Below are positions 4,898 to 62,440 of a stretch of DNA of 64,000 nucleotides, piece after piece. A model generated the notes under the pieces. The model did no database searches and was not told the DNA's origin. It saw only the letters and a program-made list of their open reading frames with translations. Each line of letters starts with the position of its first letter. Position 1 is the first letter of the stretch. The stretch covers positions 372,001-436,000 of the forward strand of contig JAJEKV010000146.1 of assembly GCA_021234155.1 (NCBI GenBank), written 5' to 3'. The DNA is from Isoetes taiwanensis. Its lineage: Eukaryota > Streptophyta > Lycopodiopsida > Isoetales > Isoetaceae. Position numbers and translations under genes: made by a program.

Positions 4898-6890
4898 TCT
4901 TACGTAGACGTTAAAAAAACTTTGATACTGTTCCTCGGAACAGGTTGTTTCAGAGGCTCAAAATGTTGGGGCTTTCTCATGAGCTGATCTGGGCAGTGTT
5001 GACATTATACGAGAATGTAATAGGTAGAGTGAAAATAGATGGGCAGTTATCAGAGGAAGTTTTCAGTACAATTGGGGTTAAACAAGGGTGTCCCCTTTCT
5101 CCTACTTTATTTGGACTTTACATTGACGAGCTTGAAAACTTTGTTCAGTCATTAGGCGGAGAAGGCTCCATGCTTGCTCAGGAATGCATTCCCATTTTGC
5201 TTTATGCGGATGATGTGGTTCTAGTCTCACCATCTCCTCACGGGCTACAAAAACACTTGGCTGCCCTAGAAGCCTTTTGCAAAGATAGAGAACTGCAGGT
5301 AAATCTCTACAAGACCAAAGTGATGGTATTTAATACCTCTTGGAAAATTTGGAAAAATAATTCTTTTACTTTCCAAGGACAACCTGTAGAAATTGTTTCT
5401 ACGTACACCTACTTGGGTGTTGAGTTTGCGGGTCCTCTTTTCAGATTAAGGGAGGCTGGTCAGGCAAGGATTGCAAAAGGATATGCTTCTCTTGTACAGC
5501 TAGAAAAACAGTGCTACCAACTCGATTTCCAAGATGTTCATACAAAGCTCTTCCTGTTCGACATGTTGGTGAAGCCGGCAGCTTTATATGGTGCACAAAT
5601 ATGGGGAGTTGACCTACGAGCCGGTGACTGGGGTCAACTGGAGAGGCTCCAAATTTCTCTCCTTTCTAGAATGATTAGAAGCAAACATTCTGTACCCCAT
5701 GATATAATGCTTGCTGAATTTAATGCAAAACCTCTGAAGGTTGAAATTGCCTTTCAAACAGTGACTTATTTACATAAGTTACACCGTTTGGGACAGTCAC
5801 AAGGTCAAAAAAGACTTCCCTGGTTGCCATATGTGTCGTCTAAAGCATTGGCAGACCAAGGTAAGTGCTGTTGCTTCTCAAGGACATCTAAATTGTTCGA
5901 GGAGATGGGTTTCTCTATGGGAAATATCCCACCTTTTCAATACAGTATAATGGATGATAATCTGAATTTTACTCAGCAAGAAATCAATCAGCTTATACGC
6001 CATGACTTGGAATATCTTTATGTTTCAAATACATGGGTAAATCCCGTCAAAGATCTGCCTGCTAAAAAGAAATTCTATAAGGATAACTTCCGGATGGTTT
6101 CATAGGCCTGGATATTTAGATATTGATCTGCCGAATAAAGTGAGATACTCTATGGGGCAGTTTAGAGTGTCATCCCACCAGTTGGAGATTGAGGTTGGCA
6201 GGGCGAAAAACGTTAGTCGTGAGGATCGGAAGTGCCCAATGTGCGATCTAAACATGGTTGAGTCAGAAGAACATTTTATTTTTACCTGCCCAACCTACTA
6301 CATTATTAGAGGCAGATATCATTGTCTTTTTAGAGACCCCACATCTCTACGACAGCTGGTAGAATATTACGATCAGAAATGTGTGTCTCACTTTGTATAT
6401 GAGCTATCTCTAGACAGGAGAAATATTCTCAAACAAAAAAATCCAACGGGCCTGAAGCAAACAGAAATAACTAATTTCTTCTCATCTGAGTCAAAGGATG
6501 ATAAGATGATAGTGGACTCATCACAAAAGAGGAAGTATCCTGACCCTAAAGGGGTGACTTTGGCACTGTCTAAGAAGATAAAAAGATCAGCAGCCATGAA
6601 ACATAAAAAGTCTTTCCAGAAGAGGCCAAACATCAAGCATCAAAGCAAGCCAAGAAGGGGTATTATGAATTACTTTGCAGCAATCACAGGAACGAATGGG
6701 CTATCTCCATCAATCCCTACCTGATCAGATTTTTAGATTTTTAATTGTTAAACTCAATATTTTTGTTTCTATACTTTAGATAACAGGAGGGTTTTCCTCC
6801 TGGAGGTCTTGAACTCTGTTTGTGTTATGGTCTCATAGACCCTTCGGGTCTTACGTAGACGTTAATAAACCTTCCTTCCTTCCTTCCTTC
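4898..6890 (+). mobile_element. Non-LTR retrotransposon (LINE), 5'-truncated, CTTC-tailed
   Basis: The element begins within or just before reverse transcriptase motif A and runs through the C-terminal zinc knuckle. Its 3' end has a stem-loop (AGACCC-TTC-GGGTCT, 6836-6850), then TTACGTAGACGTTAATAAA and a (CTTC)n microsatellite near 6870-6890. There is no poly-A tail. The endonuclease domain and ORF1 are missing. The 5' border is uncertain: the 17-mer at 4898-4914 also occurs in the 3' tail. TGGCA occurs near both borders, too short to be a convincing target duplication. The element ends directly against a KLCR exon. Confidence 0.8.
4921..6724 (+). pseudogene. LINE ORF2 reverse transcriptase, frameshifted
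   Basis: This encodes the reverse transcriptase that would copy the element by target-primed reverse transcription. Visible motifs in order: FDTVPRNRLFQRL (motif A side), GVKQGCPLSPTLFGLYIDEL (motif B), LLYADDVVLVS (catalytic YADD) and STYTYLGVEF. After the RT comes a C-terminal zinc knuckle, CPMCDLNMVESEEHFIFTC. There are two lesions. A one-base shift near 4918 separates YVDVKK from FDTVPR. A TAG at 6103 is bypassed only by changing frame, after which the text resumes as RPGYLDIDLPNKVRYSMGQF. The last 60 residues are lysine-rich and of unknown role. The LINE clade is not assigned. Confidence 0.8.
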
Positions 6891-12316: not shown

Positions 12317-12348
12317 ATTCCTCTGAAGTTTTAGGCCTGGAGGAGGGG
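12317..12348 (+). pseudogene. Left part of host exon interrupted by MULE
   Basis: From a CTAG acceptor the frame reads SSEVLGLEEG, ending in the left target copy GGAGGAGGGG (12339-12348). It is in frame with the long open stretch starting at 20962 once the MULE and one target copy are left out. An in-frame TAG at 12310 shows that the exon cannot extend further left, consistent with an intron boundary here. Confidence 0.5.
12339..12348. repeat. MULE target-site duplication, left copy
   Basis: GGAGGAGGGG directly precedes the left terminal inverted repeat. The identical 10-mer follows the right TIR at 20952-20961. MULEs typically make duplications of 8-11 bp, most often 9. Confidence 0.85.
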
Positions 12349-12562
12349 CGCCCGTATATCGAGTCCGGGATCCGGTATTTCTGGACATTTTGCCTCTGGT
12401 GTTTCTGGACGTCCAGAAACACCCAATGCATGCCCATCCGCTGGTCCATGCATGCATCGATGCCCAGGACGCCCGAGGATCCATGCATCCCAGCCATCTT
12501 CAACCGCGCAACTGAACCGCGCGGTTTTTTGTCCAGAAACACCACTGATGTTTTTGAAGGCA
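12349..12562 (+). repeat. MULE left terminal inverted repeat
   Basis: It starts CGCCCGTATATCGAGTCCGG and pairs with 20733-20946. Four G bases just outside (12345-12348) also pair with C bases at 20947-20950, so the exact terminus is ambiguous by a few bases. It contains a 26-base perfect palindrome at 12398-12423 made of two opposed GTCCAGAAACACC motifs, plus further copies of TTTCTGGAC and CCAGAAACACC, and a GCGCGGTT block near 12515. Confidence 0.95.
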
Positions 12563-12808
12563 GTTGGACAGTTGGACGTGACACTTTTTTTGACTTGTAA
12601 CTGTGGCAGTGTCCCCTGTACTTGTTTGTACAGGTGCATTTAATGAATGTGGTGGTGGTATTTCCATCCCAAGGTTGGTGGGGTGTTTCCGGCCCAATTC
12701 AAACGGAATTGGGGGATCCATTCTGTTCGGCGGAATTGGGGAACCACAGAAACCAGTCTGACGGGCCTGTTCGAAAGATCCATTGGAACGCCTGGGTTCG
12801 GGCCAGGC
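12563..12808 (+). promoter_or_regulatory. MULE transposase upstream region
   Basis: A 246-base gap between the TIR and the transposase ATG. It is GC-richer than the flanks and repeats GGAATTGGGG and GATCCATTC words on both strands near 12700-12790. It presumably holds the promoter together with the TIR, as in other MULEs. No TATA box was assigned. Confidence 0.35.
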
Positions 12809-15635
12809 ATGGAGGCAGAGGATAATGGCATCCAGGTAGAACAGGTAAGGTTATATGCAGGTTGACATTGGGTTTAGCTTTAGCAGTGTGCCAAATCTTT
12901 ATAACTTAGTAATTTTTGTCTTCCAGATTCTTTTGCATCTCCCGGTTCAAGATCCCACCATCGGTGTATTTTCGAGACTGCAATTGCAATGGGAGATAGA
13001 GCAGCATTCTGTTGTGCAAGTAACCTACCCTGGACAGCAAACTATTCCAGTGCATGCATGCTATATCCCCACAAACAGGGTGCAAGATTTCGTGGAAGGG
13101 GAGCAGAATTTGCCAGGGTGCAACACCAACTTCAGGAAGCGTGGATCTCGGGGTAGAGAAGAGGGATCTGCCAAGAAAAGAGTCGACCAAAATGCCCACC
13201 TTAAAATAACCAAGTAAGTGAATTGATTTGTCATTCAGTTTCATTTGGATTCATGGAATTTCAAGTGAAGTGAATCAGGAACTGTTATTTCTCAGCTGTA
13301 ACTTAGCTTTATTCTTGAGACTTATTGCTTAGGTTTGTAACTGAACAACTATTTCTCAATTGTAGCTACTGGTGCAGCTATGGCCCTGAAGATTATCGTG
13401 AACGTTCTCGGGAGGTCAAAGATAAAACAACCCGAGCTCTAATTGCTGAAGAAAAGAAGAAGAATCCTTCGTACTCAAGGAGACAGAGGTATGGAATGAG
13501 TATTCGGCGAGGCTGCAGGTGCCACTTTCAGGTGAAGCAATTGTATTTGAGGTCTGAGATATGTAAAATTACATACTATGAGATGAGGCACATTGATAAT
13601 GAAGAGAAAGTCTGCCATGGATTTGAGGATCCTCAATGTGCAAGAACAAGGCATGATGTAGCTCCATGGCTATCAAAGAGTAAGAAGGCTTGGGCCTACC
13701 AACAGTTGCTCCATAACCATACTCCCCAAGAGGTTTTCCGTCAACACGAAGAACAATGGGAGATAGAAAAGAGGATGGATCCCAATGCCCCCAAGAACAG
13801 AGATGCATTCTTAGCCATGGATGATTTATATAATTTGTCCCGCAAGCTGGCTGCTGACACGTGGATGCTGCACAAGAATATGGCAACAAGTGTTAGGGCG
13901 TGGGTTGATTTACATCCAGAATATGTGTTCACGTACCAGGAGGGAGTCCCTTTCACATTGGACATCATCACACCGTTCCAAATGAAGATCCTGTTAGAGC
14001 ATGGAAGGGGGAATGCTGTAGCCTTGGATTCAACCTTCAAGACCAATGACCACTGCTACAGCCTTTATACCTTGCTAGTTTATGACACGCATGGAAATGG
14101 TGTCCCTGTTGCTTGGGTTCTATCCTCTAGTGCCACTGAGGAGGATATCCATCCTTGGCTGATTGCAATGAAGAACCGCATACATAGTGAAGACCCAACT
14201 TGGGAACCTGCATGCTTCATTGTAGATGATGCACAGGCTGAGATCAATGCCTTAAAGGATGTTTGGCCCGAAACGAAAATTCAGTTGTGTATTTGGCATG
14301 TTCGAAGAAACTGGATGAAATTGCTTTTAAAACATGTGAAGAACAAGAAAGTTAGGGGGGAAATGTTTAAGGAGCTCGGTCGTATTATGTATGACACTAA
14401 AGTAGATATTGACCCAAGAAGGACTAGTGATTATGTGGAAGCATGCACCAAAGAGGCCAAAAAGTTGTTGGAAGAATTCAAGGAAAAGTACAAGATGTGG
14501 AAGAGGGTTGTGAGGTATATGAATAGAGTTTGGACCAATAACATCACACATTGGATAATTGCCACAAGGATGTATCCACACGCTAATCAAGAGACTAATG
14601 CTGGTATAGAGTCCTACCATTCGCACATGAAGAGGAGATTAGGGGTATCCAAGCATGCCTTGAGAGGAAGGAGAATAGATTGGCTCATTTACATGCTTAC
14701 AGGTACATTACGAACTCACTTGTCCTTTGATAGGTTCATGAAGGATTCGGGTTTTAAAACCAACAAGAGACAGGAGCACATAGTTGAGACTGCCATCATA
14801 GGTGCTCGAGAACTTCCAGATGTAGCTGTTAGATGGCTGAACTTCAAGGAGGGGAGAGCCGAGGTGTGGAGTCAAAACATGGACAACTGGGATGAACCAG
14901 AGAGGCTTTGCCTTACTTAGTGGAGGTTGCACATGAACATTGGTCATCATGTGATTGTCCATGGGGTATGAAAGGGAATATGTGCAAGCATCAAGTTAAG
15001 GTGATCAGGATGATGTCCAGGTACAAAGAAGAAGACATTCTAAGGTTTTCTGGTACTCTACATGGTTCTCAGGCTGGCGGGCTGTCCAATCTAAGGTCCT
15101 TTGCCGAGGCATATGATGACACCATGCCTTCTTGGGAAGAAGGGCCATGCACAGGAGTTGCATCCGATGATGAAGAATTGGATTGTAAAATTGGGGCTGG
15201 TTTGAGTGAAAACCCCAAGGTGTTACAGAGCATAGAGGAGACAATGGCAGGTCTCAAGGAGACCATTGCTAGGAGCCCCCAGGTATGGAATCAAGCTAGG
15301 TTCCTTTTAGCTGAACTTAGCAATAAGCTGGCAAGGCTAAGTGAAAGTAGAAATGTCAATTTCATGGCACCGAGTCTAGCCATGGTACAAGACTTCAATG
15401 GGAACACCATTGCTAGACCAGTACCTTTCGTGGAGAGCCACAAGAAGAGGAAGAAGAGGAGTTCACTTAGCATTTTCTCGAAGGAATGCGAAGATCATAT
15501 CACACGATGTGAAGGTATTGCATTAATTCTAACACTCTCTTTGAAATTATTTCCTCTACTTGCGGATAGTAATGTTAAGTGGTAAATGCCATGTTGCTCT
15601 TGGGTGATGGTGGAGGCAATGCCAAGGGGGTCTGA
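12809..15635 (+). pseudogene. MULE transposase (DDE, SWIM zinc finger), one frameshift
   Basis: The enzyme cuts and joins element ends. Exon 1 is 12809-12844 (MEAEDNGIQVEQ), exon 2 is 12927-13213 and exon 3 starts at 13366; phases agree (AA/C across intron 2). An N-terminal Cys/His region (GCRCHF...CHG) resembles FAR1/WRKY-GCM1 zinc fingers. The MULE core follows: ALDSTFKT (first Asp, about residue 328), IVDDAQ (second Asp, about 394), LCIWHVRRNW (CxxH motif) and GIESYHSHMK (catalytic Glu, about 522). The SWIM finger CDCPWGMKGNMCKHQVKV comes next, but only after a shift from frame 2 to frame 1 between about 14895 and 14917. Without the shift the protein ends at TAG 14918, before SWIM. A last intron from 15516 to about 15614 and a stop near 15635 are possible. 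Confidence 0.88.
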
Positions 15636-15859
15636 TCATGGATGCTGCAGTTAGCATAAAGGGGTACATTGCTTGAATATTGCACTATTAAGATCATTAG
15701 TCATATGTGTGCTCCATCTTTTGATGACTTCTGATAATTTAAAAGATATACTGTAGTTGCTCCTTTCGGATACATATGGATACATATGGATTTTCAATCC
15801 AATCTTGCTGTTAAGTAATCTTGCTGTTAAGTAACTTATGTTCAGTAACCATGCTTATG

Positions 15860-16880
15860 TCTAGAAACACCAAGACTTGGCCAGAAACACCACTGGCTAG
15901 GCCAGAAACACCATTGACTTCGGCGGAAATACCACCCTTTTGGCGAAACACCTGGCTAGGCTAGAAACACCACTCAATTGGCGGAAACACCACTCTTTTG
16001 GCCGTAAAACACCACTGGCTTGGCTAGAAACACCACTCAATTGGCCAGAAACACCACTCTTTTGGCCAGAAACACCACTGGCTTGGCTAGAAACACCACC
16101 GACCGGCCGGAAACACCATATGCACGGCCAGAAATGCCACTCAATTGGCCAGAAACACCACTCAATTGGCCAAAAACACCACCTAGATGGCCAGAAACAC
16201 CGCCTAAATGGCCAGAAACACCACTACCTTAAACAACCCTTCAATGTTTTGCATGTTGTACTCTTGTGGCCAGAAACACCAAGGATGTGGCACTCATATT
16301 TCTACAAGGGGTTGCACTCACTTGTTGAAAGTTGCAATTCAAGGTTTTAGATATTGTATTGCAACCACTCTTCTCAATGTTTTAGATATTGTATTCCATT
16401 TAGAGGTCTCAATGTTCTATATATTGTATTCCAATTATCCTTCTCAATGTTCTAGGTATTGTATTCCAATTGGAGGTTGCATGTGCTCACAACACTTGCC
16501 CAGAAACACCACTCAATTGGCCAGAAACACCACTCAAATTGGCCAGAAACACCATATGCCTGGCCAGAAACACCACTCAATTGGCCAGAAACACCACTCA
16601 AATTGGCCAGAAACACCACCAAAATGGCGGAAACACCACCTAAATTTAAACACCACTCGCTTTTAAACACCATTTCATACTGTTTTACATGTTGTACTCT
16701 TGTGTGGCTTGAAACACCACTTTTCTGGCCAGAAACACCACTAAAAAGGCCATAAACACCATCTAAAAGGCCAGAAACACCAAGAATATGGCCAGAAATA
16801 CCACTAACTTGGCCAGAAACACCAAGATGTCTGACAAAAATAGCAGGTGTTTCTGGTCATATACTTGGTGTTTCTGGTCA
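15860..16880 (+). repeat. MULE internal array 1: GGCCAGAAACACC at 21-bp spacing
   Basis: Dozens of copies of GGCCAGAAACACCA lie between the convergent transposase and protease genes. In the clean stretch, GGCC/GGCT positions fall at 16022, 16043, 16064, 16085, 16105, 16126, 16147, 16168, 16189 and 16210, that is 21 bp apart with one step of 20. Only the 7-8 bases between motifs vary. Bases 16330-16480 hold a second repeat, about 40 bases, built on TTTTAGATATTGTATTCCAA. The last motifs near 16850-16880 are inverted. Open frames across it are repeat products. Confidence 0.95.
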
Positions 16881-17062
16881 AAGAGACACCATCCATAACA
16901 GTTGCAAAATGCTGTACAAGTCTTCTGTGACATAGTTATGCAATAACTTATGCTGTAAATCATGGAATAACTACAAAATCTGCTACCATGTTCCAGCCAA
17001 TCAAGAGTTTAGAAGCCAACACTGTTCAAGAGTTTAAAAGCAAAAGAAAAACAGAACATTTC

Positions 17063-19459
17063 TTAGATTGTCTTGGGTGGCTTTTTGGCCTGCACCACGG
17101 CTTCATGTAGCCTGCCCAGCATGCTGCTAAATGTGTCTCTGCAGTTTGCCACATCAATCTTGTCAAACCAGTCCTTAGTTACATGCATTTCAGCTTGTTA
17201 GTGTGATTGCGCAGTAGTATCTTCACACAACCAATACCCTTACCTCGACAGGTAGCAGCTGGAAATCCTTGAGAATGAAATCTCGTATAAAGCACCTTGC
17301 ATACAGTAATGTGTACACCCCACAGTCTGAACCATTTTGCTGCTGTGGACCGCGCATTTCAATTGCTTGAATGTCAGCCATTTCTGGTGCAGGGCTGCCC
17401 CAACTAGCATGCACTTCCTTGAGCAGCCTGCAGCCATCTCATGCTAGTGAGAGATGAATTTAAAAAAACCAACAAATAGTATTGCATGCAAATAACTTAC
17501 TCGACTACTTCTCGGGCCACATCAGCAGAATGATATCTCATCATAGAATCAAAATGCAGCAAGGCAGGGTGTGGCACTCCAAGTGACTTACATATTTCCC
17601 AATCAGCACAATACAGGTAAAGGCTCCAATGGTGGCTGCACTTAAACGAGGTGAGAGAGACAGAATTGTAGAGCAGTGATAAATGGACGAGTATTTTAAA
17701 TGTAAATAAATGTCATCATGCCAAAAATAACTTACCTTCTTACCACGGGCAACCAGTAGAAGAGAGATGGTTCTCGAGGTCTAGGAGGAATAATCTTCCT
17801 CCAAATTGACTCTCTCTTATTCATGTAGAGGTCTACCAGTCCAGGATGAAAAAACACATGACTTCATCTCTGGTGGACTGGTATGGTATGAGAGACCACC
17901 CTGCACAAGAATTTTGAATTCAGAAAAGATGCACAATCAGACTCTATAAAAGGGAAGACACTTACATCAAGTAGGCACCCACGCATTGCTCATTCAGCCA
18001 AGACAAGCCAACCTTCTCAGGATTATCTGAACCAGGATGCTCAAAGGAAATGGCTTCTGATTGACATATCACAAATTCACCTTTGCCATCTTTTACAGTA
18101 GCCCAAAGTGGGCTCCTAAGATGCACGGGCCACTGAGCATCGTATGAAAGAATTGGATTGGCCTTGGTGGCTTTCCCTTTCTTCTTTTTGTTAGCCCATT
18201 CCAAGGTAGTGAGGTCATCAAGATGCATGAAGAATTCAAAATCCAAAATAAAATCCTCGGTCATAGTTACCATTGTTCTCTTGATCACGTCTGTCTCCCC
18301 ATCATCTACCACATCCAAGTAAGTAGACATCTGGTGCACGGGAGAAGCTGCAGCAGCACTCAAAGGGGTACCCAAAGAAGTTTCGGCCCCAATCCTCAGC
18401 CTTGGTTTCTGTGGAGCTTTAAAATTCAAGCCAGCAACTATGGATTTTGTTAGCAATGTAACTGGTGTGGATGGAGATTTGGGGACACTAGAGATGCCCT
18501 CAAACCTGCCACAATAAAGAAGCCGTGTCTGCAGCCCCAGCTTGCATGTCTCCAAATTCCCATAAGCCTCACGGTCAGCCCATTCATTTCGGTCCACAGA
18601 ATCAAGACCATAATTGTGTGCTATGTACCTCTCACACTGAGCTATTTTTTTCTCTTTCATTGCCTCCCATTCCATCCTCCTCTGAGCTACATACCTCCCA
18701 GCATAAGACGCCAAAGTGTTCTCTTTCTCCTCCCCATCTTCAATATTCTGGAGCATAGCCCGGCCAGCACCCAGAGCTAGATCTTTGCATCTCTTTAAAA
18801 ACCTGGACAGATTTAACTTATACTTATATTCTGGATCAAGGGCTCGCTGCAAAGCATACTGGGATAAATCTCGCCCTTCCCTTCTTTTCTGCTTGGTAAC
18901 AGCCAACCTCTTTCTGCCCACTGGACTGCACAACCACATGCAATCCGTGCTCCCTTGCCAAGTGATCTTGCAGCCTTTGTTTTTTAACCGAAGACCAAAC
19001 ACAACCTTGAAATAAACAAACATGCCTATTTTTCTTATTGCTGTAATAATACCTGCGTTCCCAAGCCGCTTCATCGATCTCGGAATCCTCCTCTGAGTAA
19101 GCAGCAACTACCTTGGCATCCTGAGGTGCTCCACGCGGTGGGCTTCCCATATCTGTCCTTTTTTGCTTCTTGATCTCTCTCAAGGACTTTGTTTGAATAG
19201 CATCTGGCTGCTGCCCCGGCTGTTTTTCTAAGGCCCTGGCTCTCATTTGCAGCAAAAGTTCCTCTGGAGATGGCTCGGCTGACCCTGCTCCCTTGGCTGA
19301 GCCCGCTCCCTCGGGTGACCCTGCTTCCTCCGAGAAAGCTTTCCCGGAGCTGTAATACCAGTCCGAGCTCTCATCAGAGCTCGCGTTTTCTTCCTCCGAG
19401 CTGTCATTGGGGCAGCCCCATCTCGGCATATTGGCGTCGCGCGAGCCCGAAGCTGCCAT
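17063..19459 (-). pseudogene. C2H2 zinc finger + ULP1-type SUMO protease carried by MULE, two lesions
   Basis: Exons on the minus strand: 19459-17966, 17900-17736, 17635-17501, 17427-17244 and 17173-17063. All have GT-AG introns and consistent phases. The N terminus is acidic and Ser/Glu-rich. A C2H2 finger follows (CLFQGC...HLAREH, spacing C-x4-C-x12-H-x4-H). The C terminus is a C48 peptidase: SWLNEQCVGAYL, HHWSLYLY (catalytic His), LLHFDSM (Asp) and QQQNGSDCGVYTLLYARC (oxyanion Gln and catalytic Cys). The family removes SUMO from proteins. Lesions: a one-base frameshift between about 18890 and 18945, just after the finger, and an in-frame TGA at 17866-17864 in exon 2. The active-site residues are all present. 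It is convergent with the transposase. Confidence 0.85.
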
Positions 19460-19844
19460 GGCACTGCGCTAAACGAACCTGCTCTGCCCTGTTTTTTCGG
19501 ACCTGTGCCAAATGAACCTGCACCAAACGAACCTGTTTTTTCGGATGTGCTTTTCCTGTTTTTTTGGATGTGCTTTTGGTTGGGTCTGTGCTTTCCTATT
19601 TCGACCAAGCCATACCTGCCCCAAAAATTTTTGGACATGTGCTTTTCGTTTCGATCAAGATACTTTTCTGACAGGAACATTCTATTTCGAACCATTAGAT
19701 TTGCCCTGAAATTTAAAAATCTTGTGATGATTGATGTCGTACCATTGACACTGATGTTTAAAGAATATTTAGTTTCGACCCACTTCAAGTGCATTTAATA
19801 CTAGTACTCCCTTCCGAACAAAATTACCCATGGTTATGGTTAGA
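19460..19844. other. Upstream region of the ULP gene
   Basis: The gap between the protease start and array 2. It repeats GAACCTGYNCCAAAYGAACCTG near 19475-19540 and has no separate gene. It probably contains the promoter of the minus-strand gene. Confidence 0.35.
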
Positions 19845-20595
19845 AACACCCAGCCAGAAACACCATAACATTGGCTAGAAACACCTTACCCTTACTCAAC
19901 ACATTATGAAATCATCATTTCCATTTGAGATTGCCAGAAACACCATAAATTTGGCCAGAAACACCATGCCTGGCCAGAAACACCAATGGCTGGCCATAAA
20001 CAACATCCCTCAGGCCTTCCCCATGCTAGTGGCCAGAAACACCATGCCTCTGGCCAGACACACCATGCCTCTGGCCAGAAACACCATTCCTCTGGCCAGA
20101 AACACCATGCCTCTGGCCAGAAACACCATGCCATGCCTCTGGCCAGAAAAACCATGCCTCTGGCCAGAAACACCATGCTTGTGGCCAGAAACACCATGCT
20201 TGTGGCAAGAAAACCATGTCCTTGTGGCCAGAGTTGCAATTCAATGTTTTAGATATTGTGTTCCAATGTTCTTAGCATTATTAAGTTATCAATTCCAATT
20301 GAGATTTATGATTAATAATTGGTTGCAATCGGGATCTTGTGAATTGCAATTCAATGTTTTAGATATTATGTTCCAATTACATGTCTCAAGATGTAAAACC
20401 CCGCAACTCCATGTTGGGTTGCAAATTTGGCATTCACAATATTTATCTACACTATGTCAATGGGATGGCTCTATAACTTTTGTATCCTATGGCCAGAAAG
20501 ACTTAGCCCATGACCAGAAACACCTGTGGCCAGAAATACCAGGTATTGTCCTGAAACACCTATCACATTGGCATGACCAGAAAAACCATACCCAC
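19845..20595 (+). repeat. MULE internal array 2: GGCCAGAAACACCATGCCTCT at 21 bp
   Basis: The same 13-mer as array 1. GGCC positions are 20031, 20052, 20073, 20094, 20115, 20141, 20162, 20183 and 20204: every step is 21 bp except one of 26, where ATGCC is duplicated. Degenerate copies extend to about 20590. The TTTTAGATATTGTGTTCCAA repeat of array 1 recurs at about 20245-20385, so the two arrays share two repeat families. It lies between the ULP gene start and the right TIR. Confidence 0.95.
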
Positions 20596-20732
20596 ACTAC
20601 CGGATTTGCTCACGCCTGTGGGGAATGCAATCCCGTTTGAATTTGGAGGGGTACAATCATAACCCTGAATTTAATGCACCTGGCAACCTCAAACGAACCC
20701 GCCACAGGTATGATGCTGCCCGGTCCAAAAAG

Positions 20733-20946
20733 TGCCTTCAAAAACATCAGTGGTGTTTCTGGACAAAAAACCGCGCGGTTCAGTTGCGCGGTTGAAGATG
20801 GCTGGGATGCATGGATCCTCGGGCGTCCTGGGCATCGATGCATGCATGGACCAGCAGATGGGCATGCATTGGGTGTTTCTGGACGTCCAGAAACACTAGA
20901 GGCAAAATGTCCAGAAACACCGGATCCCGGACTCGATATACGGGCG
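20733..20946 (-). repeat. MULE right terminal inverted repeat
   Basis: Reverse complement of 12349-12562 over the full 214 bases with 3 substitutions counted. One of them breaks the 26-base palindrome in this copy (CACTAG instead of CACC). Confidence 0.95.
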
Positions 20947-20951
20947 CCCCC

Positions 20952-20961
20952 GGAGGAGGGG
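20952..20961. repeat. MULE target-site duplication, right copy
   Basis: GGAGGAGGGG, identical to 12339-12348. Confidence 0.85.
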
Positions 20962-50319: not shown

Positions 50320-53300
50320 ATGGCGATGCGAGCTCCGGCGCTGGCCATCCCCTGGAAGGCCACAGGCCAGTTACCTGGATTGCCTAGCTCTGGAATACTT
50401 AGAACTGGCTCAGATGATTTACCCAATTGCATTGGAGCTGGAAATGCCTCAAAATGTGATAGAATGGCTTGTTGCTTGGTGACCAGTTCTGGCAATGGAG
50501 AGTTCATTGTTGAGTCTTCATTTATGGGTTACAAGTCTACCTTGGTAAGTATATATCCATCTTTGCCGAGTTGGTGTGGGTCTCAAGAATTTATTAACTT
50601 TTTTTTATGAATTACCTTGCTGTCCGTTTTCATTATTCTGCTCATTTGAAGTGTATCGCATTTCTATGGTTGATCATACAGCCTAAGTGGTAGTGGTGAA
50701 TAATTCCTAGTGTTTAAGTGATTTTGCTGCAAAGCAAGCTAGTTCATTTCACAATGAAAACTTGATGGAACCAGACCATAAAAGTGCCCAAACAAATCAT
50801 TATGATGCATAGAAGGATATTGTCAAGAATTCAGCTGGCACGGTCTAGTGACTGTGTTCAAAAGGATGCCAGCACTTACTGGATTACATTTGGTTATGTC
50901 TTATTCTTACTAAGTGATCTTCACATGACATTTGTTAGCCATGTTAAAGATGCGTCAGTTGTGTACTTTTGCAGGTGAGTAATTGAGAAACATGAATAAG
51001 GTTTGTAAAGCCTACTAATAGATTTTGCTGATGGATAAAAACAAGTTGTTTCATCCAAGCTGTTGGGAAAATCAACATTTGGAGTAAATGCTGATTTTGA
51101 TCTCTATCAATATTTGCAGAAATCAAGAAGACATGGTTGTGTTGCTCAAAACGGTGTGTCAAAAAGAAATGTCAGTTGTGCAGGTATGTCGTGGCCGTTT
51201 TGTTTCTTCACCTGTTAACATTTCGATAGTCAATGCTGCTGTTAGATTAGTTTCTGAGAATTTTTTCCAGTCGAGCTAGTCAATGCATACGGTGATACTG
51301 TCTCCTTGAAAGTGCCTTCTATCCAAAGGAGGATAGATGTGTCCCAATCTAGCCACCAAAGATGAGCATGGCAGAGAGAGGAAAGTTCTCTCAGCCGGGT
51401 ATAAGCTCTCGAAGACCAAAACTTGAAGACACGCTAGGGAAATGGGAATTTAAGTAGCTAGGATATATATAGCTCATGCGAGGTTCATGCTTGTAAATGT
51501 CTTAAGCACTACTTAAGCTATATTTAAGATAAAACATGTCTTTAAGCATTACTGTTTCCTTCATTGTACAGCAAAGGTGCCAAAGAAGTCTGTTCATCAA
51601 AAGAGTAAAGAGGTGGAAGGTCTTCAAAAAACCCTTAGTCATGATGGTCAGGAATCTAAAGCTGATTTTATTGAAGAAAATGTTGTAAGTGATAGAATGG
51701 GAGATGAGAAGGCAAAGCCAGAAACCGTAGATGTCAAACATGAGAATCAACTGGAACAAGAGGAATGGGGAGCAAAGCAAACAGCCACAGGAATGCACAA
51801 AGTACAGGAAGAGGAAGAAGAGAGGAAGAAACATGATGAACTAGGCCGGCATAAGGAGGCTGTTCTGAAAAGGAAAAAAGAGGAAGAGCTAGCTAGGCAA
51901 AAGGAGCTTGCTTTGGCCCTTGAGAAGGAGAAAGCTGAGATGGAGGCAAGGAAGCATGAAATTATAAGGCTGGCTGATATATCACAGCTTGCAAAGGAAA
52001 AGGTGTTCTTTTACCCAGAGGTTGCACGTGCAGGAAATGAGATCGAAATATTTTTGAACCGGAGATTGTCAGCATTGGCCAATAGGGATAATGTTCAAAT
52101 CATGGGGGCATTTAATAATTGGAAATGGGAATCTTTTGTTGTCAAGTTGCAAAAATGCAATATTCAAGGGGATTGGTGGTCATGTAAACTTAGTATTCCA
52201 AAAGAAGCATATAAGCTAGATTTTGTATTCTTTGACGGTGAGAATGTTTATGAAAACAATTCAATGAAGGACTTCTCTGTTTTAGTGGACGGTGGTATGA
52301 CAGAGGAAGACTTTGAAGACTTTTTGATAGAGGAGAAATCTAAGCAAGCTCAGAAGTTGGCATTAGAACAAGCAGAGAGAGATCGTATTACTGCGGAAAA
52401 GCGCAAGATCGCAGAAGAGAAGGCAGCTGAGCAGGTTGACAGAGCTGAAGCAAAAAGATTGGCAAATGAACAAAGAGAGAGAACACAGGCAGCATTTCAA
52501 AAAGCAGTTACTCATGCAGATGGTTTGTGGAGGATTGAACCATTAAGTTTCACTGCTTCTGATACCATTAAGCTATTCTATAACCGCAGTTTCCGTCCAC
52601 TTTCTTCAAGTTCAGAAGTGTGGATCCATGGTGGTTATAACAATTGGCAGGAAATGGTATCTATAGTAAAGAAGCTCTCACCTACCGTGTCAGAGGGCGG
52701 TGATTGGTGGTCTGTTGAAGGTAAAATAGAAGGGCATATGCTTACATGTTTGTAACAGTGTTTGCTTTTCAGTTTTTGCTGACCTGTCACTGTTGTGTGA
52801 AGTAACTGTGCCGCAGAATGCTTTTATACTTGATTGGGTCTTTGCTGATGGACCGCCTGAAAGAGCAGCTGTCTATGATAATAACGCTTATCAGGATTTC
52901 CATGCCTTGGTACCTATGTCAGTTCCGGAGGAGCAATACTGGGCAGAAGTTGAAGATAAGCTTTTTAAAAGCTTACAAGAAGAGAGGAGAAAGAGAGATG
53001 AAGCAATTCAGAGAAAAGTAAGTTATTTCTACCATGTAGCCTAACTTCAGTTTGTAGAGGCTTGCTAATGCTAGAGCAATTGTTTTTTGTGATATAATCA
53101 TATAAACCAAATGGCATACTAATATGAAAAAAGATGGCCCATGGCTGAGACAAAGTAGGCTTTCATTATATAGCCTAATGTAACCCTTTTGCCTGACGAT
53201 CGAAATGAGCTCAGAAAAGAATGACATTATTTAAGATAAATGAGAGAGTCTACATTCAATCATAAATTTAGTGGAAAAATAAAGTATATTAAGAGAGACA

Positions 53301-62197: not shown

Positions 62198-62440
62198 CCA
62201 AACGTATATCGAGTTAGATATACTGCGTATATCGAACTCGATATACAAATATACAGCGTATATCGAGTTCGATATACGACGTATATCGAGTTAGATATAC
62301 GACGTATATACAAATATACAGCGTATATCGAGTTCGATATACGACGTATATCGAGTTAGATATACGACGTATAGCGAGTTAGATATACGACGTATAGCGA
62401 GTTAGATATACGACGTATATCAAACTCGATATACGATTTT
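62198..62440. repeat. Array of short hairpins (GTATATCGAGTTCGATATAC)
   Basis: About ten units of roughly 20-27 bases. Each is an imperfect to near-perfect inverted repeat with arms GTATATCGA and TCGATATAC (or TAGATATAC), separated by CGAC or by AAATATACAGC linkers. Units alternate TTCGATATAC and TTAGATATAC forms; some have TATAGCGAG. The array ends in a T-rich run (62438-62460). Confidence 0.92.

Follow-up and report, generated by a model that had tools for sequence, protein, structure and literature searches.

The closest described counterparts of the system reported here are the VANC proteins of Arabidopsis transposons. Those of VANDAL21 and VANDAL6 bind to short motifs arranged as noncoding tandem repeats, and they remove methylation from the family that encodes them; the VANC motif and protein are described as diverging together (PMC5735166, PMC10398659). 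Some VANC genes carry a Ulp1 domain, whose role is called unknown in the portion of a 2026 review that treats it (PMC13317346). The window analysed in this work is a stretch of 64,000 nucleotides (64 kb) from Isoetes taiwanensis (GenBank assembly GCA_021234155.1, contig JAJEKV010000146.1, positions 372,001 to 436,000 of the forward strand). It holds a Mutator-like element (MULE) with terminal inverted repeats (TIRs), 8.6 kb in length (12346-20949, ends placed by eye), in which a mudrA-like transposase gene, a second gene (ORF2) and two noncoding arrays of one short motif were recognised. Some element-encoded protein very probably binds these arrays. That they are clustered sites for a VANC-like DNA-binding regulator, with ORF2 as reader and effector, is the reading preferred here by analogy, and our confidence in it is evenly divided.

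The whole window was searched for the 13-mer GGCCAGAAACACC with up to two mismatches. All 58 matches obtained (mean 1.0 and maximum 5 in 100 shuffles) lie within the MULE, in keeping with the preliminary description of this DNA, which had placed two arrays of the 13-mer inside such an element. Array A has 29 matches, array B 20 and each TIR four, and a lone match, at 12682, follows the left TIR and precedes the transposase gene (coordinates in Table 1); none was found in the transposase gene, in the ORF2 gene or in the window outside the element. Plus-strand steps in array A were exactly 21 bp in 17 of 26 cases and 20-22 bp in 21 of 26, the corresponding counts for array B being 9 and 11 of 19. 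The earlier statement that nearly every step is 21 bp therefore describes the regular stretches and not the arrays as a whole. Its ten anchors at 16022-16210 were recovered with eight steps of 21 bp and one of 20; the nine at 20031-20204 were also present, with one step of 26 bp and the ninth anchor below the match threshold. More regular stretches were located at 16498-16617 and 16706-16823; these, like the sites in both TIRs, are absent from the preliminary description. A second, TCAATGTTTTAGATATTGTATTCCAA-like repeat was observed in gaps of both arrays (16339-16471, 20240-20267 and 20350-20377), with a 35-bp period in array A; the copies in array B were assigned by eye.

Column conservation was determined from the 29 window units followed by another unit exactly 21 bp downstream. 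Identity over the 13-mer was 0.90, a value inflated by the choice of units through their 13-mer match; the next column (0.86) and the last column (0.75) were also conserved, and the six remaining columns stood at 0.28-0.42. The repeat is thus a conserved core with a linker of fixed length, as had been described, with the sizes corrected from 13 bp and 7-8 free bases to a 15-bp core, TGGCCAGAAACACCA, and six columns. In fixed-pitch runs the identities of core and linker (eight columns) were 0.90/0.45, 0.95/0.52 and 0.94/0.41, and 0.97/0.80 in the youngest run. Between arrays A and B the linkers are 0.19 identical (six columns) and the 13-mer 0.90, which bears out the claim of a conserved motif with a variable linker in both arrays. 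Linkers of adjacent units are more alike (0.65) than those of non-adjacent units (0.43), indicating that units arise by tandem duplication, after which linkers drift and the core is kept. Tandem duplication passes on its pitch in any case, and the proposed selection for a 21-bp pitch as such is not supported.

Related elements were sought in the Isoetes genome (1.66 Gb) by searches that score the best candidates only, so that the counts are lower bounds: at least 155 matches to ORF2, at least 97 to the transposase, at least 46 to the TIR and at least 145 to the arrays. The ORF2 matches listed reach down to 33% identity. Thirty-four pieces were fetched, representing 33 loci (L021 extends L020), or 34 loci with the window. 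Loci L001-L020 were selected by transposase and ORF2 matches, L022-L025 by TIR or array matches and L026-L034 by transposase matches; the loci of group G1 were partly known beforehand to have arrays. Whether family members possess arrays had been suggested as a check, and the answer was positive in 32 of the 34 loci (window included), in all 28 that match ORF2, and in 21 of the 23 chosen without regard to arrays (L007-L020 and L026-L034). Six loci lack an ORF2 match; four of these have arrays (L022, L023, L025 and L034), and neither arrays nor an ORF2 match were found in L032 and L033. Truncation is possible for L025, a 1.7-kb piece, and for L032-L034, which are 8-kb pieces. In the array loci counted, the commonest 10-mer per locus was present in 25-113 copies except in L013, where the array is weak (16 sites; 7 copies); five window stretches of 9 kb used as controls gave 13, 4, 6, 3 and 6 copies.

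Ten motif types were distinguished, each with the core of its own group and all alignable on the frame TG..CC.....ACCA; the cores were trimmed and aligned by hand, and G4, G5 and G5b are one element each. The cores, with modal pitches in bp, are TGGCCAGAAACACCA in G1 (21), TGGCCAGAAATACCA in G2 (21/22), TGTCCTGATTAACCA in G3 (26), TGTCCAGATTAACCA in G4 (26), TGTCCAGGTTAACCA in G5 (26), TGTCTAGGTTTACCA in G5b (26), TGGCCACATTAACCC in G6 (16/28/44), TGTCCAGATAAACCA in G7 (23), TGTCATGTTTGAACCA in G8 (22/24) and TGACATGTTATAGCCA in G9 (21/23/24). Comparison of the groups over 16 columns gives 1 to 9 motif differences. The G7 core was taken from word counts, its 9-mers having 45-47 copies in L012 and 6-7 in L013. 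All sites of array A are on the minus strand and all of array B on the plus strand in G2, G3, G5 and element L012 of G7; both arrays are mostly plus in G1, and G4 and G6 are mixed. No core match with up to three mismatches was found in the mapped ORF2 stretch of any of 27 elements, this stretch being part of the gene only in some of them (e.g. L007 and L011). L011 also has sites directly upstream of its main transposase exon. Palindromic head-to-head pairs of sites were observed, ACCATGGTAT in G2 (L009 and L018) and GTTAATGTGGCCACATTAAC in G6 (L014), and suggest a dimeric reader. The G7 elements L012 and L013 contain many palindrome-like GTATAAATAC words at 15-bp spacing besides their core, and an 8-kb stretch of one contig (G000:C291:7851-15845) matches array B at several separate places.

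Modal pitches from 16 to 26 bp make 21 bp a trait of some groups, and helical phasing at 21 bp as a general explanation was rejected for that reason. The proposed selection for a pitch of two helical turns did not survive, since related groups stand at 21/22, 26, 23, 16/28/44 and 22/24 bp, nor does a pitch matched to the length of small RNAs fit 16, 23 or 26 bp. Arrays serving as targets or decoys of small RNAs in RNA-directed DNA methylation (RdDM) would have a parallel in VANDAL noncoding regions, which RdDM is described as targeting (PMC10398659). The pitches do not track 21- or 24-nt lengths, and small-RNA matching needs no conserved core with free linkers, so that we hold this explanation to be very improbable. 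Plain satellite expansion without function is disfavoured even more. It would account for units made by tandem duplication, for the closely similar linkers of the youngest window run and for the linkers of the 26-bp and 22/24-bp groups, which are largely conserved. It does not account for the disparity between core columns (about 0.9) and linker columns in the window, for a core shared by arrays A and B when their linkers are so different, for the arrays at every locus with an ORF2 match, or for a core common to the TIR sites.

The two genes of the window element are convergent, with the transposase gene on the plus strand and ORF2 on the minus strand. The MULE domain PF10551 was matched above cutoff, and the TIRs are accompanied by a target-site duplication (TSD) of about 9 bp, both as in MULEs. 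Identical 9-bp flanks were found in relatives L006, L020 and L023; matching 9-bp flanks were not seen in L022 nor, by eye, in L004. CACTA termini with a 3-bp duplication, as in Spm/En, were not found, the termini being GGGCGCCC and the TSD 9 bp. The window copy of ORF2 is degenerate, its reading frame being shifted and also interrupted by a stop. The ORF2 product begins with an acidic, serine-rich part, followed by a single C2H2-type finger, a conserved region and an Ulp1-like peptidase. The spliced ORF2 tail of relative L008 matched Peptidase_C48 (PF02902) at 1.1e-10 and sentrin-specific protease 5 (SENP5) at 3.4e-7, and contains the His-Asp-Gln-Cys set predicted for a SUMO protease (Ulp1/SENP, C48) in HHWSL, LHFDS and PEQENGSDCG. 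Each of G1, G2, G3, G5, G5b, G7, G8 and G9 has at least one element with the contexts of the catalytic H, D, Q and C. DUF1985 was not found at E values up to 1 in a scan that covered 494 aa of L003 ORF2, the tail of L008 (215 aa) and the open reading frames given for the window.

The cysteines and histidines of the finger are present in G1 to G9. Its helix is KKQRLQD in G1, KKQRLQE in G2, RRERLQK in G3, KRARLQK in G4, KRLRLQT in G5, KRARLEE in G6, KRKRMEK in G7, RKDRLLK in G8 and RKYRFKT in G9, with KKDRFKT in L027 of G9. In the usual numbering, position 3 of the helix is always arginine, and positions 2 and 6 are variable. In G8 and G9 the finger is followed by RGRP, an AT-hook-like sequence.

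Motif-like sites were also examined at the element ends. Of 11 loci, 8 have two such sites, 24-28 bp apart, near the left end; these loci span five groups (G1, G2, G3 in L019, G7 in L013 and G8 in L020), and the sites start about 23-51 bp from the element end where that end is known. L009, L011 and L015 showed no TIR-like pair upstream of the transposase; in the last two the left end may have been lost or may lie beyond the piece. TIR sites and array sites are alike, with differences at one to three positions. The array and TIR words are GGCC and GTCC in G1, AAATACC and mostly AAAGACC in G2, and CCTGATT and CCGGATA/CCGGAAA in a single G3 element. From G1 to G3 the arrays differ at five positions and the TIR sites at two or three, by a hand count with TIR sites from few elements per group. 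Several derivatives retain sites. L022 (4.3 kb between TIR ends) has no ORF2 match and keeps arrays and TIR sites; L023 (3.0 kb) has a partial transposase, no ORF2 match, an array, TIR sites and identical 9-bp flanks, TTCAAGACC; and L024 keeps ORF2 and arrays, with no transposase match in the fetched piece. The flanks of L023 most likely record movement with proteins supplied in trans.

These sites bear on a serious rival explanation, which we nonetheless consider unlikely, namely that the arrays are internal transposase sites copied from the TIR. Such sites could aid synapsis or titrate transposase, or the transposase could itself act against silencing as MURA does on Mu TIRs, where it induces hypomethylation (PMC10398659). 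The paired sites near the left end, the arrays retained in L022 and L023 and a correlation of the motif with the transposase equal to that with ORF2 (below) are consistent with it. Against it, suggestively, array cores differ from the TIR sites of the same element in G1, G2 and one G3 element, and between G1 and G3 the arrays have diverged at more positions than the TIR sites. A transposase reading the TIR and an ORF2 reading the arrays, both from a common ancestral word, would fit these differences, but so would a single protein that reads the two kinds of site.

Another alternative, which we find considerably more doubtful, follows Spm/TnpA: ORF2 would bind arrays and TIRs as cis-determinants of excision and promoter regulation, and not for removal of silencing. 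TNPA is described as binding repeated subterminal motifs, as required for transposition and as acting in trans where deletion derivatives retain its sites (PMC2613891). L023, of which just arrays and TIRs are kept apart from the partial transposase, would suit this scheme. The window arrays, by contrast, are internal and beside gene ends, array A being separated from each end by about 3.5-4.5 kb, and a protease domain is not needed for simple end-binding.

In the preferred reading, with ORF2 as a VANC-like regulator, its C2H2 finger would recognise the 15-bp core both within the two arrays and at the TIR and promoter sites, and the many copies of the site would concentrate the protein on the element. 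The Ulp1-like protease could then strip SUMO from silencing factors at the element, or otherwise disrupt them, so that the subfamily would stay expressed and mobile. New sites would be added by local tandem duplication, with linkers drifting and selection keeping the core, and joint divergence of core and protein would give each subfamily a private target word. The binding by ORF2, the anti-silencing effect and the involvement of SUMO are each conjectural, the SUMO step being suggested by the domain. We offer as a tentative possibility that ORF2 is a sequence-guided SUMO protease, in which the finger directs an Ulp1-type protease to private sites of 15-16 bp, dozens of them on the element, and deSUMOylation is confined to the element's own chromatin. 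About ten subfamilies in one genome would then each have evolved a private pair of protein and address, independently of the solution of DUF1985-type VANC. Sites for an element-encoded protein, proposed in the preliminary description, remain the best reading on the sequence evidence, with the C2H2 protein a good candidate; the 21-bp phasing attached to that proposal is not supported. Neither the part of VANC that confers specificity nor the way in which binding leads to anti-silencing is settled in the available text of Hosaka 2017. The Isoetes genome provides a natural series of some ten types in which protein and motif are matched, and the pairing of one finger, a small domain that is the candidate reader, with a candidate effector (the protease) makes both questions directly testable.

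Divergence of the motif was compared with that of the proteins in nine groups, with one representative each, G5b left out and the cores aligned by hand. Motif distance correlated with ORF2 distance at r 0.60 (19 of 5000 permutations as high). ORF2 is the less conserved protein, its identity between the window and G8 being 0.31-0.32 (transposase 0.46) and between the window and L010 of G3 0.42 (transposase 0.68); VANC and VANA conservation are in the same order according to Hosaka 2017, as far as consulted. No clear conflict was found between transposase and ORF2 trees (23 sequences each). The ratio of nonsynonymous to synonymous divergence (dN/dS) for ORF2 was 0.15 between G1 and G2 and 0.10 between G3 and G4, with 0.14 and 0.15 for the transposase. 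By these ratios ORF2 is under purifying selection between groups.

A number of observations weigh against ORF2 as the VANC-like reader of the arrays. For the transposase the correlation with motif distance is just as strong (r 0.60; equalled in 21 of 5000 permutations), the partial correlations are 0.18 and 0.19, and ORF2 and transposase distances correlate at 0.88; covariation thus does not name the binder. Synonymous divergence (dS) was higher in ORF2 than in the transposase, 1.46 vs 0.80 for G1-G2 and 1.38 vs 0.38 for G3-G4 (pairs from L003, L006, L008, L010, L011 and L017, with some representatives differing between genes). Given the similar dN/dS, the lower identity of ORF2 is by itself no sign of adaptive change; the unequal dS may mean that ORF2 with its arrays and the transposase were exchanged as modules. 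Between recent copies dN/dS of ORF2 was 0.41-1.00, and neither gene is intact in the window copy. The catalytic Gln was not seen in either G6 element with a match (L014 and L030), the Cys is also lost in L014, and no Ulp1 domain match was obtained in L011, the sole G4 element. A single C2H2 finger alone reads only 3-4 bp, so that a dimer or further contacts would be needed to read the core. Sites resembling the array word also occur in the TIRs, where the transposase should bind, and in G7 the de novo word search returned GTATAAATAC first, the commonest word in L012.

Table 1. Features of the window element (positions in the 64-kb window)
Feature	Position	Strand	Remarks
Left TSD, 9 bp, CTGGAGGAG	12337..12345	.	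8/9 letters as in right copy
Left TIR	12346..12565	+	221-nt arms, 98% complementary; motif-like sites 12374, 12398, 12411, 12531
mudrA-like transposase gene	12809..15585	+	PF10551 4.8e-20; frame interrupted near 14915; start and exons placed by eye
Array A of TGGCCAGAAACACCA	15859..16879	mostly +	modal pitch 21 bp; two inverted sites, 16846 and 16867
ORF2 gene, C2H2-type finger and Ulp1/C48 peptidase	17063..19459	-	frame shift and in-frame stop
Ulp1-like domain of ORF2	17063..18009	-	five exon pieces; splice sites by eye
Ulp1 exon pieces	17966-18009, 17736-17900, 17501-17635, 17244-17427, 17063-17185	-	
C2H2-type finger region of ORF2	18929..19054	-	C-x4-C-x12-H-x4-H
Array B	19838..20587	+	core and modal pitch as array A, other linkers; upstream of ORF2
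Right TIR	20730..20949	-	221-nt arms, 98% complementary; motif-like sites 20752, 20872, 20885, 20909
Right TSD, 9 bp, CCGGAGGAG	20950..20958	.	read from sequence; one letter differs from left copy

Elsewhere in the window, a reverse transcriptase with broken frames (PF00078, 6.6e-22) was located at 4915-6724 and judged to be LINE-like (long interspersed element), a starch-binding CBM53 domain (PF16760, 7.7e-24), in agreement with a plant source, at 51517-52755, and at 62202-62436 an array whose ATATACGACGTATATCGAGTTAG-type units measure 23/46/65 bp.

The Isoetes element is not a VANDAL. With MuDR/MURA it has in common a mudrA-type transposase, long TIRs, a 9-bp TSD and, in MURA, binding of the TIR by the transposase; we know of no internal arrays or ULP gene in MuDR. 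The resemblance to Spm/En TnpA consists in an element-encoded protein (here a candidate), a short target motif present in repeated copies, the retention of sites by deletion derivatives and, for Spm/En, a link with demethylation (PMC2613891, PMC10398659). Spm/En differs in belonging to the CACTA superfamily and in the subterminal placement of its sites (PMC2613891, PMC10398659). Like the Kaonashi (KI) MULEs with their KIU genes, the window element has an Ulp1-like domain in a gene reverse to mudrA, and like the ULP-bearing TIR-MULEs of melon it has TIRs (PMC13317346, PMC2528002). KI-MULEs are described as non-TIR, unlike the window element (PMC13317346, PMC2528002). KIU-bearing Vandals are credited with motif recognition, and no finger fusion or fixed-pitch arrays are described in the portions of these sources consulted (PMC13317346, PMC2528002). 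A literature search on MULE, Ulp1, finger and repeat arrays returned no title or abstract with this architecture, subscription papers being outside its scope and absence therefore unproven; a search with the motif letters gave no transposon paper by title among the matches listed.

From VANDAL and VANC, as they appear in the accounts available to us, the Isoetes system departs in several respects. VANDALs are non-TIR MULEs, whereas TIRs (221 bp in the window element) are present here and in relatives, with a 9-bp TSD. Where VANC has DUF1985, the scanned ORF2 sequences yielded none and have instead a C2H2-type finger with Ulp1. VANC function was established by experiment, and the Isoetes system has been read from sequence. 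Both are nevertheless MULEs with a further gene, whose product is less conserved than the transposase, and both carry a short tandem motif in noncoding DNA that varies between related elements. In Isoetes the arrays are dense, the modal pitch is specific to the group, the TIRs have sites as well and ten motif types occur in one genome; if the preferred reading is correct, the target-array strategy extends to TIR-MULEs and to another protein architecture.

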